Assembly: GCA_018065565.1 (NCBI GenBank)
Contig: JAGHSZ010000082.1
Location: forward strand, 1-64,000
Length of the DNA: 64,000 bases
Reading direction: 5' to 3'
Source of the DNA: Candidatus Colivivens caballi
GTDB lineage: Bacteria; Bacteroidota; Bacteroidia; Bacteroidales; Bacteroidaceae
Shown here: in pieces, positions 8,494 to 44,935 of the stretch
How the letters are laid out: the number at the start of each line of letters is the position of its first letter
Position numbering within the stretch: position 1 is the stretch's first letter
Made by a program: the position numbers and the translations under genes
The notes under the pieces: generated by a model
The model's input: the letters and a program-made list of their open reading frames with translations, nothing else
Database searches by the model: none
What the model was told of the DNA's origin: nothing

Positions 8494-8498
8494 CTATG

Positions 8499-8571
8499 AG
8501 CGGAAAACGAGACTCGAACTCGCGACCCCAACCTTGGCAAGGTTGTGCTCTACCAACTGAGCTATTTCCGC
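8499..8571 (-). tRNA. tRNA-Gly (GCC), copy 1
   Basis: The acceptor stem GCGGAAA/TTTCCGC is intact. The anticodon loop reads TTGCCAA, giving GCC, and the discriminator is T, usual for bacterial glycine tRNA. The gene is identical in its visible body to the copy at 8590-8662, only 18 bp away. It is the last gene of a three-tRNA operon. Confidence 0.95.
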
Positions 8572-8589
8572 ATAAAAGCGTTATTTGAG

Positions 8590-8662
8590 AGCGGAAAACG
8601 AGACTCGAACTCGCGACCCCAACCTTGGCAAGGTTGTGCTCTACCAACTGAGCTATTTCCGC
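8590..8662 (-). tRNA. tRNA-Gly (GCC), copy 2
   Basis: Same sequence and structure as the neighbouring copy at 8499-8571 (acceptor GCGGAAA, anticodon GCC). The pair looks like a recent tandem duplication that raises gene dosage. Confidence 0.95.
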
Positions 8663-8684
8663 ATTATTTTATCTTTCAAAACAG

Positions 8685-8765
8685 TGCCCAGGACAAGACT
8701 CGAACTTGCACGTCTCTCAACACTCGCACCTGAAACGAGCGCGTCTACCATTCCGCCACCTGGGC
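8685..8765 (-). tRNA. tRNA-Leu (CAG)
   Basis: The acceptor arms GCCCAGG/CCTGGGC pair. The anticodon stem CTCGT/GCGAG encloses TTCAGGT, giving anticodon CAG. A long variable arm (class II) and the TTCGAGT T-loop confirm leucine; the discriminator is A. First gene of the tRNA operon. Confidence 0.93.
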
Positions 8766-12687: not shown

Positions 12688-12749
12688 CGTTCTATAATCA
12701 CTGCAAATAACATTAGTTACAATGTCAAGCATATTTCAGCATAAACATA

Positions 12750-12969
12750 TGCATGTTAGCCATCGAACCTATGCACAATCATGCCCTCACAACCATATGT
12801 TAGCCCTCAAACCTATGCACGTTCATGCCCTCACAACCATATGTTAACCCTCGAACCTATGCATGTTCATGCCCTCACAACCACATGTTAACCACTTAAC
12901 CTATGCACAACTTTACCCTCACAACCACTTATTCGGCCAACGACCTATGCATGTCAGCCTCAACACAAA
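12750..12969. repeat. Tandem array of five 44-bp units, each of two ~22-bp halves
   Basis: Units start at 12750, 12794, 12838, 12882 and 12926, all 44 bp long; units 2 and 3 are nearly identical and unit 5 is the most diverged. Each unit holds two related halves sharing ATGTT, CCCTC and AACC, and the palindromic cores CATATG and ATGCAT (or ATGCAC) alternate at about 21 and 23 bp. The period is not a multiple of three and no reading frame crosses it. It ends about 155 bp before the -7 element of the FAS1/Sus locus, so a regulatory or architectural role is possible. The rest of the 12620-13312 gap holds a terminator, the promoter and a leader. Confidence 0.85.
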
Positions 12970-35660: not shown

Positions 35661-37181
35661 CTATTGATGTTGCTCGCGCAACAAGTCGTTAACTGTCTTC
35701 ACTGGGTTGAATGTGTCAAGTGGCACTTCAACAAAAATGGTGTTCCAGTCACTCATTGCACCGTTCCAGAGTCCTGGAAGTTCCAGCGCACGCAGTTCCC
35801 TTCCGTTCTTGCTCTTCGATGAGATAAATCCAGTCTGCTGGTCAACATATTCAGGAAGGTTGAACTTCTGACCTTTATAGTCCTTCACCGCACAGACGAG
35901 ATCCACAGGATTGAAGTGAGTGCCCTGTCGGAACATCTCCACATACTTTTCATTCGATGTGTCAATCTGGCTGCTTTCAAGTATTTGCAGCGATATGGTT
36001 CCGTCGGCATTATAGGCAAGGAACGGACCGCCTCCTGGTTCGCCCACATTGCGCACCATGCCACATGCACGCATAGGTCGGTTCAGTTTCTTGCGTATAT
36101 AGACAGCGAGTTCTGTGTCTTCAAGCGAGTCAAGCGACGGATTGGTGATGCAGAAGTTATCAGAAAGGAATGCCTGCATCTTCATCAGGTCGTCATGAGT
36201 ATAACTGCCTTCGTCAAGCATCTCCATATACTCAAACGCCTTTTTTTGCAATGAAACCAGCACTCCTGCCAGCAGTTTTTTGTTCAGTACAGTTGAAGGT
36301 TTCAAAGAATCTGGTACAACATTGTCAATGTTCTTTATGAAGATGATGTCGGCATCGAGGTCGTTGAGGTTTTCAATCAATGCACCGTGACCACCCGGAC
36401 GGAACAGGATTGAACCGTCGTCATTGCGGAATGGTTCACCATCGGCTGTGGCAGCCACTGTGTCGGTACTTGGTTTCTGCTCTGAGAATGTCACATTATA
36501 ATGTACATTAAACTCGTTTTCAAAACCTTCAACTTTTTCCTCCACCAGCTGTTCAAACAGTTCCCTGTGTTCTGGGCTGACAGTAAAATGTATATTTACA
36601 TTTCCATCAGCAGTTGCAGCATACATAGCACCTTCTGCCAGATGTTCTTCAAGCGGAGTGCGTACACAGTCATCATAGGCATGGAAGAACAAGAGTCCCT
36701 TTGGCAGTTGTCCGTAGTTAAGGCCATCCTCGCTCAGCAGTGCATCAACCACAGCCTTGTAGTCGCCAGCCTCAATCAGTTCGTCAACTTCTTGCTGATA
36801 ATTGACAATACACGCATCATTGAGAGCATCAAAGAATGCAAAGTCGTGAATCCCAGAAAAGAACGATTTCATGAAGTCTGTCTCAGGTTCGTCAGCATCA
36901 CTGTCAAGAAATTCAAACAGATTCTTGAACATTCGTGAAGCGGCGCCGCTGGCAGGCACAAACTTTTGCACTTTATGGCTACCATTCAGGTATTGTGTCC
37001 AAACATCAAGATAACTTGACTGTTCAGTTTCACTTACTACGAAAATACCGTTACCTGGTGCTGCTGCTCCAGCAAGTCGCAGATATGGGAAACCATTGCG
37101 ATGCTGTTCGAGTTGGTGCAGAAGTGTCTCCTCACTGATGTGCTTCTTTTCAAGAAAAGCCTTGTCCTCTGATGTAATCAT
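35661..37181 (-). CDS. DUF4301-family protein, possible nucleotidyltransferase
   Basis: Cytosolic protein of 506 residues that I recognise as the Bacteroidetes family DUF4301; function is not established. Two features suggest a sugar-nucleotide pyrophosphorylase-like fold: [18 protein letters not shown] (residues ~75-92), resembling a nucleotide-binding GxGxxxRM-type loop, and [28 protein letters not shown] (written here as [10 protein letters not shown] and IFIKNIDNV, near 237-264), which recalls the PPGHG and DNL motifs of UDPGP-type enzymes. That reading is inference. A promoter lies at 37208-37215 and a terminator after the gene, so it forms its own unit. Confidence 0.75.
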
Positions 37182-37303: not shown

Positions 37304-37475
37304 TTTAGCCCAAATCGACCATTAGCGTTATGATGATAACAGACTTAGTTTTTGGACAGATGCATTGCCGGTTTGAGGGCGCAATGGGGGTCCATTGTAA
37401 CCGAGAAGCGACATTGCAGATGACAAAAAGAAGGCTTGTCAGCGCGTAACAGTCTAATGGACGATTTGGGCTAAA
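37304..37475. repeat. ~172-bp element with imperfect terminal inverted repeats
   Basis: The left end TTTAGCCCAAATCG-A-CCATTAG is matched in inverted form at the right end (about 37453-37475) with one mismatch in roughly 22 bp, and weak matching continues inward. The interior of about 125 bp has no gene. A degenerate relative of one arm (GTCTAAT-CGG-TTTGGG-TAAAA) occurs at 51615-51636. It could be a small non-autonomous transposon remnant. Confidence 0.55.
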
Positions 37476-37523
37476 AATGGTCATTGCAAATGTGGTTCAT
37501 ATTTCCCGTCCAAACAAGGTTTA

Positions 37524-37743
37524 TTCTCACGAGCGCTCATGTTTTGTCTATCGTGCATACATGTTTGCCTTCACGAGCGCACGACAATTAAAAAAGGTGT
37601 ACACCTTATCGCAAAAAGGTGTACACCAAAGTCCGAGAAGGTGTACACTTAATTTCAGAAAGGTGTACACCTTTTTATATTTATGAGCGCTCGTGTGAGC
37701 ATTTATGACCGCTCGTAAAGGCATTTATGAGCGCTCGTGAGGA
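37524..37743. repeat. Ten palindromic cores at exact 22-bp pitch (3+4+3 array)
   Basis: Palindrome centres fall at 37534.5, 37556.5, 37578.5, 37600.5, 37622.5, 37644.5, 37666.5, 37688.5, 37710.5 and 37732.5. The four central cores are AGGTGTACACC(T). The outer cores are GAGCGCTC, GTGCATAC (degenerate) and GAGCGCAC on the left, and GAGCGCTC, GACCGCTC and GAGCGCTC on the right. Flanks of the left outer units (TCACGAGCGC) are the inverse of those on the right (GCGCTCGTGA), so the array is roughly mirror-symmetric. A 22-bp pitch (about 2.1 turns) would put bound dimers on one face of the helix. The array lies between the DUF4301 promoter side and the ligA stop. No coding frame crosses it. Confidence 0.88.
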
Positions 37744-37762: not shown

Positions 37763-39850
37763 TCATTTAATCATTTGAAGGAACTCATCCTCGCTCACGA
37801 TAGCAACACCGAGTTTCTGTGCTTTTTCAAGTTTTGCGGGTCCCATATTGGCACCGGCAAGCACAAAGGATGTCTTGGCACTGATGCTGCCTACATTCTT
37901 CCCTCCGTTCTGTTCAATCAGCGCTTTGTATTCATCGCGGCTATGGTACGAGAAGACTCCACTGATGACAATGCTTTTGCCTTCGAGTTTGGTTGTCATG
38001 CCCTGCATCTGCTCGTCAGACAAAGCCATCTGCACACCTGCCTGTGCCAGTCGGTCGATGGTGGCACGGTTGGTTGCATCAGTGAAATAATGGATAACAC
38101 TGTCGGCTATGACATCGCCCACGCCATCGACTTCAAGCAGTTGGTCGTGAGTGGCTGATGCCAGTGCTTCCATTGAGCGGAACTTGCGTGCCAGCAGTTT
38201 GGCTGTGGTCTCGCCGACAAAGCGGATGCCTATGGCATAAACCACTCTTTCAAACGGCACTTCACACGATTTGCGGATGGCATCAACAGCCTTTCGGGCT
38301 GACACTGCGCGGTTTGGATTGTTATTTGAGATTTGGGCAACCGTCAGTTGGTAGAGGTCGGCAATGTTGTGGATTAGCCCACGCTGATAGTAGTCATCGA
38401 CAGTTTCGGGTCCAAGACTTTCTATGTTCATTGCCTTACGCGAAATGTAATGTTCGATGCGGCCCTTTATCTGTGGTGGACATCCGGAGTCGTTTGGACA
38501 GTAATGTGCAGCCTCACCTTCGTAGCGTACAAGTGGTGTGCCGCATTCTGGACAGGTCTCAATGAAACGTACTGGGATGCAGTCCGCACTGCGCTGTTCC
38601 ACATCTACGCCAACGACTTTCGGGATGATTTCTCCACCTTTCTCTACATAGACCATATCGCCTAAATGTAAGTCGAGTTGAGCAATGATATCGGCATTGT
38701 GAAGCGATGCACGCTTGACAACAGTTCCTGCCAGTTGTACCGGATCCATGTTGGCAACAGGAGTTATTGCCCCAGTGCGCCCCACCTGATAGGTCACTTC
38801 ATTAAGTTTGGTGCAGGCACGCTCTGCCTTAAACTTATAAGCAATCGCCCAGCGAGGCGATTTAGCAGTGAAGCCTAAATGTTTTTGCTGTCGGAGCGAA
38901 TTGACTTTCAAGACAATGCCATCGGTGGCAACTGGAAGGTTCTTGCGCTCGGTGTCCCAGTAGTTTATGAAGTCAATGACATCTTGCAGACAATGGCACA
39001 GGCGCATTCCCTCACTGATTTTGAAACCCCACTTCTTTGCTTCTTCGAGCAGTCCATAGTGGGTGACATCACCGTCAGTAGCGGGTGTAGCCACTGGCTG
39101 TGGTGCAAAGAGGTCGAGTTGCATCTGCTGTGCCGACGATGCTGTTGATGGGGTTTCGGCATCATCATCATTTAGAAGATAATACAGATAGGCATCAAGT
39201 CCGCGTTCTGCCACGACTGCTGAATTCTGACTTTTCAGTGTGCCACTTGCTGCGTTGCGTGGATTGGCAAAAAGTGGTTCTTCACGCAATTCGCGTTCAT
39301 GGTTCAGCCGTTCAAAACTGGTCCATGGCATCAATATCTCGCCACGGATTTCAAATTGATGTGGATAACCACTCCCTTCCTGTAATTGAAGTGGAATGGA
39401 ACGGATGGTACGGACATTGGCAGTGACATCGTCACCCTTCACTCCATCGCCACGGGTAACAGCCTGTGTGAGTCGGCCGTCAACATAGGTAAGGCTAATG
39501 CTCAGACCATCATACTTCATCTCTGCCACGATTTCAAAGTCCTCACCCTCAAGTCCATCTTTGACACGCTGATAGAAATCAGCCACATCCTGTTCGTTAT
39601 ATGTATTTGCTAACGACAGCATCGGATGGCGATGAGCCACCTGGGCAAACTGCTGGTTGAGGTCGCTCCCCACCCTTTGAGTCGGGGAATTTGGGTCGTA
39701 CATATCAGGGTGTTGTGCCTCAAGTTCCTCAAGTTGGTGCATCATCTGGTCAAACTCATAATCGGAGATGACTGGCTGATTGAGCACATAGTAATTGTGG
39801 TTGTGCTGATGCAACTGCTGACGCAACTGAAGTATTTGGTCTTTGTACAT
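37763..39850 (-). CDS. ligA: NAD+-dependent DNA ligase
   Basis: Seals nicks in replication and repair using NAD+. The 695-residue protein has domain Ia ([15 protein letters not shown]), the adenylation site KYDG at 112-115, the OB fold, the Cys4 zinc finger (CPECGTPL ... [10 protein letters not shown]), helix-hairpin-helix repeats ([12 protein letters not shown]) and a C-terminal BRCT domain ([12 protein letters not shown]). Odd feature: an insert of about 30 residues in the adenylation domain (about 228-262, acidic and Ala/Pro/Thr-rich) carries QLDLF at 244-248, a perfect copy of the bacterial sliding-clamp-binding pentapeptide. ispE lies 5 bp upstream, so the two form an operon. Confidence 0.96.
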
Positions 39851-44773: not shown

Positions 44774-44935
44774 CAGCCTTGCCTTCATTCCCTCATCCCA
44801 GCCTTGCCTTCATTCCCTCATCCCAGCCTTGCCTCCATTCCATCACCCCAGCCTTGCCTTCATTCCCTCACCCCAGCCTTGCCTCCATTCTCTCATCCCA
44901 GCCTTGCCTCCATTCCATCACCCCAGCCTTCATTG
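44774..44935. repeat. 25-bp tandem repeat, six full units and a partial
   Basis: Units start at 44774 and recur every 25 bp to 44923, followed by a 12-base partial. The consensus runs CAGCCTTGCCTCCATTCC then A/CTCAYCC, with few differences between units (T/C at one site, CTCATCC versus ATCACCC). The period is not a multiple of three and has no palindrome, so it is neither coding nor CRISPR-like. It lies between the RAYT-like gene and hsdR. Such near-perfect tandem repeats are prone to unit-number change. Confidence 0.9.

Follow-up and report, generated by a model that had tools for sequence, protein, structure and literature searches.

Plasmid iterons and partition-site arrays space several binding sites for a protein about two helical turns apart and are bound cooperatively. 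The sites of SlmA, Noc and MatP are palindromes dispersed over the chromosome, where they are read by dimers. Among extragenic repeats, REPs are single hairpins of 20-40 nt with a cognate RAYT transposase (PMC2817692, PMC6006769), and most of them carry GTAG or CGTC tags (PMC3733652). The BrickBuilt MITE of Porphyromonas gingivalis occurs in 19 copies, each composed of 1-23 units of 23 nt (PMC4596501).

The window considered in this study is a stretch of 64,000 nt from the draft genome of Candidatus Colivivens caballi (G000), and the features discussed are collected in Table 1. An earlier note described ten palindromic sites at an exact 22-bp pitch between ligA and the DUF4301 gene, in a mirror-symmetric 3+4+3 arrangement. 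The sites and the pitch are confirmed where the note placed them: ten 8-bp cores have their centres at 37535 + 22n up to 37733, with a pitch of 22.0 bp, and span 37531-37736. Five consecutive in-phase cores are perfect palindromes, and the longest phased run of cores with at least three of the four arm pairs is eight. When the 64-kb window was shuffled 60 times with its dinucleotides preserved, the corresponding maxima were two and five. The label of palindrome is too generous for three of the cores, GTGCATAC, which pairs at 2/4 positions, and GAGCGCAC and GACCGCTC, which pair at 3/4. The mirror symmetry of the window array is likewise incomplete at the level of sequence. The inversion of the outer spacers between left and right is real, and the division into two core classes is supported by the comparisons below. 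As the note also held, the layout is not that of a CRISPR: there are about 84 short arrays with two core classes and unrelated neighbours, not one locus of uniform repeats and unique spacers beside cas genes.

Table 1 Features of the ten-unit array and its neighbouring genes. Positions are those of the window; units are numbered from left to right, each with its core sequence.
Feature	Position	Strand	Remark
Complete array of ten units (three outer, four core, three outer)	37524..37743	.	pitch 22 bp; one of ~84 arrays
Outer unit 1, GAGCGCTC	37531..37538	.	left arm
Outer unit 2, GTGCATAC	37553..37560	.	degenerate
Outer unit 3, GAGCGCAC	37575..37582	.	
Core: A-run, four TGTACA palindromes, T-run	37590..37677	+	orientation from comparison with other copies
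Core unit 4, GTGTACAC	37597..37604	.	
Core unit 5, GTGTACAC	37619..37626	.	GTGTACAG in most other copies
Core unit 6, GTGTACAC	37641..37648	.	
Core unit 7, GTGTACAC	37663..37670	.	followed by T-run
Outer unit 8, GAGCGCTC	37685..37692	.	right arm, inverted flanks
Outer unit 9, GACCGCTC	37707..37714	.	
Outer unit 10, GAGCGCTC	37729..37736	.	
ligA (NAD-dependent DNA ligase)	37763..39850	-	Pfam; stop codon 20 bp from array end
DUF4301 gene	35661..37181	-	Pfam; start codon 343 bp from array

In none of the relatives examined do the two genes that flank the array lie side by side. They are about 4 kb apart at three sampled loci (two of which are the same contig), and at another dapA appears, by my reading, downstream of ligA. 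A comparison with an empty site between ligA and the DUF4301 gene is therefore not informative.

The window contains other repeats. Between the DUF4301 gene and the array, at 37304-37479, is an inverted repeat (TTTAGCCCAAATCG ... CGATTTGGGCTAAA, about 150 bp apart) found nowhere else in the DNA examined. A second, unrelated tandem array at 12744-12954 has a 22/44-bp period (AACCTATGCA.. / ..CCCTCACAACCA..), and its longer words occur, among the DNA examined, only there. A 25-bp tandem repeat (6.3 copies, 91% matches) occupies 44774-44930, and at 8498-8765 the minus strand carries three successive tRNA genes, of which the first and second lie in an exact tandem duplication of 91 bp.

The array belongs to a family dispersed over the genome. 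The pair GTGTACAC-N14-GTGTACAC occurs 109 times in the 2.55-Mb draft assembly (84.7% complete), the reversed control pattern not once, and the pair is absent from 60 genomes of relatives, 16 of them in the same genus. A search with a core sequence model of 88 positions (R1, which matches C126:37591-37676 at 85.4 bits) found, by my count, about 84 arrays, comprising some 80 full-length copies and a few partial ones; degenerate copies are few. Only 150 of the 910 initial candidates were given a score, and weak copies could be missed for that reason. From the 84, the 81 distinct arrays that have four intact TGTACA boxes at a pitch of exactly 22 bp were taken as a set for comparison. They contain 106 of the 109 pairs. 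The edges of their boxes are held, and the middles of their spacers are nearly free to vary.

These 81 arrays also define the arms. Identity to GAGCGCTC at the in-phase outer units 1-3 is 6.3, 7.0 and 6.1 of 8; beyond them it falls to 3.1 at the fourth outer position and then to 2.3 and 2.0, the last being the value of the out-of-phase control (2.0). The number of consecutive good outer units is exactly three in 90 of the 162 flanks, four to six in 34 and fewer in 38. The 3+4+3 layout is the modal design of the family, so this part of the earlier description was no accident of one locus, but it is not a full symmetry: 64/81 arrays have GTGTACAG as unit 5, which makes their core asymmetric. Slips of phase occur mainly at one place, the right arm lying 1 bp farther out in 29 of the 81 arrays and the left arm in four.

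Where one half of an outer core is perfect, the deviations in the other half comprise 203 G/C or A/T complement swaps, 50 transitions and a single other transversion, while the three classes are even in flanking control columns (689/684/669). Over the whole element, the excess of complement swaps is clear at particular columns (A-tracts, box edges) and not at all of them. The pattern suggests that what is read is the class of base pair, strong or weak, with strand orientation left free, as expected where duplex DNA is recognised by its shape or through the minor groove. Neighbouring units within one arm resemble each other more than shuffled ones do (z about 2 to 6, the shuffle controls treating copies as unrelated and ignoring their kinship), so the arms probably also extend by local copying.

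With simple ORF calls, none of the main genes contains an array, and a few arrays overlap short ORFs of doubtful reality. By the same calls, 24 of 60 arrays fall between convergent genes, as compared to 73 of 526 background gene pairs in the same stretches, and 10 of the 60 between divergent genes. The median distance is 192 bp to the flanking 3' end and 347 bp to the 5' end. In the congener G016, whose own arrays are described below, the medians are 37 bp (after the stop codon) and 176 bp. The proteins encoded on either side have mixed functions: among 75 of them, no Pfam family appears in more than two, and no transposase family recurs.

The copies also avoid one another. Within contigs, the gaps between arrays (n = 21) range from 7.5 to 29.9 kb and are typically 13-30 kb. 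Only two are shorter than 10 kb, against about 16 expected under random placement, and none of 20000 simulations gave so low a number; the test rests on these 21 gaps in draft contigs, the lengths of array-free contigs being approximate. Dispersed and non-random placement, as judged from the draft assembly, is a feature of nucleoid or chromosome-organising sites, but the over-dispersion could also result from target immunity, or from recombination that removes copies lying close together. Contig ends are found within 1 kb of 22 of the 84 arrays, a further limit on the spacing test, and arrays of this kind may therefore break metagenome assemblies.

In relatives, the pitch is kept and the words are not. 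The pair GGATATCC-N14-GGATATCC is found 287 times in G016, mostly in arrays of four units at 22 bp, and not in the other 16 genomes of the genus. Pairs of GTGCGCAC number 128 in G015, 15 in G009 and none in the other 15 genomes, which makes it the clearest word shared within the genus. Pairs of ACATATGT number 14 in G011, again mostly in arrays of four units, with one or two in each of three other genomes. A second family of 22-bp pitch accompanies the first in G015: one consists of four GAGTGCGCACTC boxes without arms and the other of four GCGTCGC-type boxes with mirrored arms (L066, L070, L072). In G008 (L075, 7154-7480), the arms that flank TTCGAA-type boxes have a unit of 11 bp (GAGTCAGTAAC), so that the usual pitch is halved.

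The lag of 22 is also prominent when no particular word is sought. It accounts for 26 of 53 tandem matches in random stretches from congeners, where the next commonest lag has five matches, and is the commonest lag (21/66) at 80 ligA loci from the wider family, one of which (L113) is the G015 locus counted a second time. Across 262 kb from other families of the order, there is no tandem match at lag 22. Runs of four to five AAACGN6CGTTT boxes with a 22-bp pitch occur in the cultured strain Phocaeicola plebeius DSM 17135; its genome has 23 such pairs, and three other Phocaeicola genomes have none. A locus of Paraprevotella sp. (L160, 8449-8558) has GTGTACA/CGTACA boxes at 22-bp pitch, a word resembling that of G000 in a different genus. 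Among viral contigs, the pattern matched 17 stretches.

The earlier note had read the strict phasing of changing sequences as a sign of selection on pitch rather than slippage, to be given up if relatives kept the cores and lost the spacing. The opposite is found, spacing being kept and cores not, and the retention of pitch across species with differing words supports selection. The positions of the arrays are not conserved between G000 and G016: no orthologous flanking genes are shared between 60 arrays of the former and 19 of the latter, where by my estimate about two would be expected by chance.

The explanation I prefer, though only tentatively, is that the window array is one copy of a dispersed element of double-stranded DNA that would be bound cooperatively by a protein and might serve to organise the chromosome. 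Protein dimers would occupy palindromes 22 bp, or two helical turns, apart and hence on one face of the helix, which would make their binding cooperative; constant pitch with changing palindromes is what is expected if dimers must adjoin on one helical face. The core presents four strict sites (GTGTACAC in G000) between two mirrored arms of three looser sites (the GAGCGCTC class). The looser sites might be bound by a second protein or by way of DNA shape, and the whole could work as a nucleation core with spreading, or with two proteins. The dispersal of the arrays, their avoidance of close neighbours and the lack of any common gene function nearby indicate a role on the scale of the chromosome: some 84 platforms, mostly near gene ends, would probably organise it jointly, as anchors or as barriers to supercoils or transcription. 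Of the functions proposed in the earlier note, a nucleoid-type dispersed site is still the leading candidate.

The putative binder has probably co-evolved with its sites, since the word differs by species whereas the pitch persists, as does the common core of four units. A broader version of this explanation is possible but doubtful: a system spread through the Bacteroidaceae in which a putative cooperative protein reads four-site, 22-bp arrays every few tens of kb, the word being replaced between species like a dialect and all arrays re-sited. Since G000 and G016 share no positions, the sites must have arisen anew, and a self-spreading element explains that more directly.

Such an element, a non-autonomous repeat in the manner of MITEs or REPINs, is the main rival, and I consider it unlikely, if still to be taken seriously. 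The palindromes would be sites of the copying enzyme, turnover would keep the copies alike with one family per species, and target immunity would separate the copies and so yield the over-dispersion. It fits well with families private to each species at non-orthologous positions and with about 84 copies of which few have decayed, and BrickBuilt, with its tandem 23-mers in an intergenic MITE, is a precedent (PMC4596501). The arrays nevertheless lack the traces of insertion. No target duplication at a fixed offset and no constant ends past the array are seen in 81 G000 or 19 G016 arrays, nor the leader and tail or terminal inverted repeats of BrickBuilt; with no target duplication and no transposase among the listed families of the flanking proteins, a canonical transposon insertion is rejected. 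The Y1 transposase (PF01797) gave three weak matches in the genome, 84.7% of which is represented (C60, C94:8.9 kb and C113:57 kb), none beside an array. The ends of Tn7/Mu-like transposons have several sites of ~22 bp and go with an encoded DDE transposase; PF09299, a transposase family of that type, gave no match, but the control search was equally silent. Fixed palindromes with diverging spacer middles are, moreover, unlike recent copies of one sequence.

An extragenic element of the REP/BIME kind, binding topoisomerase or a similar general factor at gene ends and relieving supercoils between convergent genes, is improbable, despite several points of agreement. The bias towards 3' ends and convergent genes given above, with the G016 arrays close behind stop codons, is typical of such elements, their words too are species-specific, and conservation of strong or weak base pairs would suit wrapping or bending. 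The arrays, however, have no REP foot or adjacent RAYT gene, and for a general factor there would be no need of an exact palindrome that differs from one species to the next.

The chance that the arrays are bidirectional transcription terminators or elements of 3' UTRs is, in my judgement, slim. An intrinsic terminator is a G+C-rich stem-loop with a T-run behind it. An A-run precedes the first core unit and a T-run follows the last in G000 and in about half of the G016 arrays, an arrangement like that of a bidirectional terminator, which counts against a binding platform. Folded by themselves, units bounded in this way reach -8 to -10 kcal/mol, the location behind stop codons is suitable, and a scan found a terminator-like match on the minus strand (1 vs 0.8 in shuffles). 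The four sites, their 22-bp phase, the outer arms, the private words and the wide spacing would all be unnecessary for a terminator, nor would one be looked for between divergent genes, where 10 of the 60 arrays lie. Terminator activity may be a side function.

The pairing of mirrored units, which also tells against a terminator, makes a selected RNA or cruciform hairpin formed from the mirror halves very improbable. Taken singly, the array in the window gives a fold of -106 kcal/mol (z -12.4), a stability owed to the mirror layout. Across the 81 arrays, though, mirrored variable columns pair less than shuffled ones (0.501 vs 0.530, z -5.9), which argues against a selected hairpin; the core alignment holds no compensated pairs, and Rfam has no match at the array. 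The arrays seem to avoid perfect mirror pairing, a possible reason being the instability of long palindromes. Last, that the array is a local regulator of the DUF4301 gene, as the earlier note had suggested, has next to no probability: the array is upstream of that start codon, but it lies directly behind the ligA stop codon and is one of about 84 that adjoin unrelated genes.

If the binder of the preferred explanation exists, the arrays would represent a widespread, undescribed DNA-binding system of chromosome scale in gut bacteria that are abundant, and one that brings its own natural experiment, the same geometry with another word in each species. Since the cultured P. plebeius DSM 17135 carries its own version, the question is testable now. 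If the arrays are instead a mobile repeat, a family that keeps helical register and whose copies avoid one another would also be unusual. On either reading, the arrays could be misread as local regulatory sites.

In the open-access literature searched, I found no account of 22-bp-phased arrays in Bacteroidaceae, which is weak evidence of novelty. I class the arrays with the dispersed extragenic palindromic repeats, as a variant of them, and see a real chance that they are a new kind of system. They are like BrickBuilt in belonging to Bacteroidales and in being intergenic, dispersed, built of short tandem units and restricted by species; BrickBuilt units, however, are abutting direct repeats within leader and tail segments that bear terminal inverted repeats, with no reported regular spacing or mirror arms, whereas those of G000 are phased palindromes at pitch 22 with variable spacers (PMC4596501). 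They are like REP/BIME elements in being extragenic, palindromic, species-specific, of high copy number and biased to 3' ends (PMC2817692, PMC6006769), and unlike them in being compact palindromes of 8-16 bp in rigid 22-bp register, with no adjacent Y1 transposase and no GTAG or CGTC tag conserved in the consensus of the 81 arrays. Membership in either group is thus rejected on the features tested, in REP/BIME for want of the tag and a cognate RAYT, and in BrickBuilt for want of abutting 23-nt repeats and of leader and tail. Iterons and partition arrays occupy one locus per replicon beside rep or par genes, as compared to some 84 chromosomal loci beside unrelated genes in G000. The sites of SlmA, Noc and MatP are single, with words conserved over wide clades, whereas those of G000 are phased arrays of four sites plus arms, with words private to the species.
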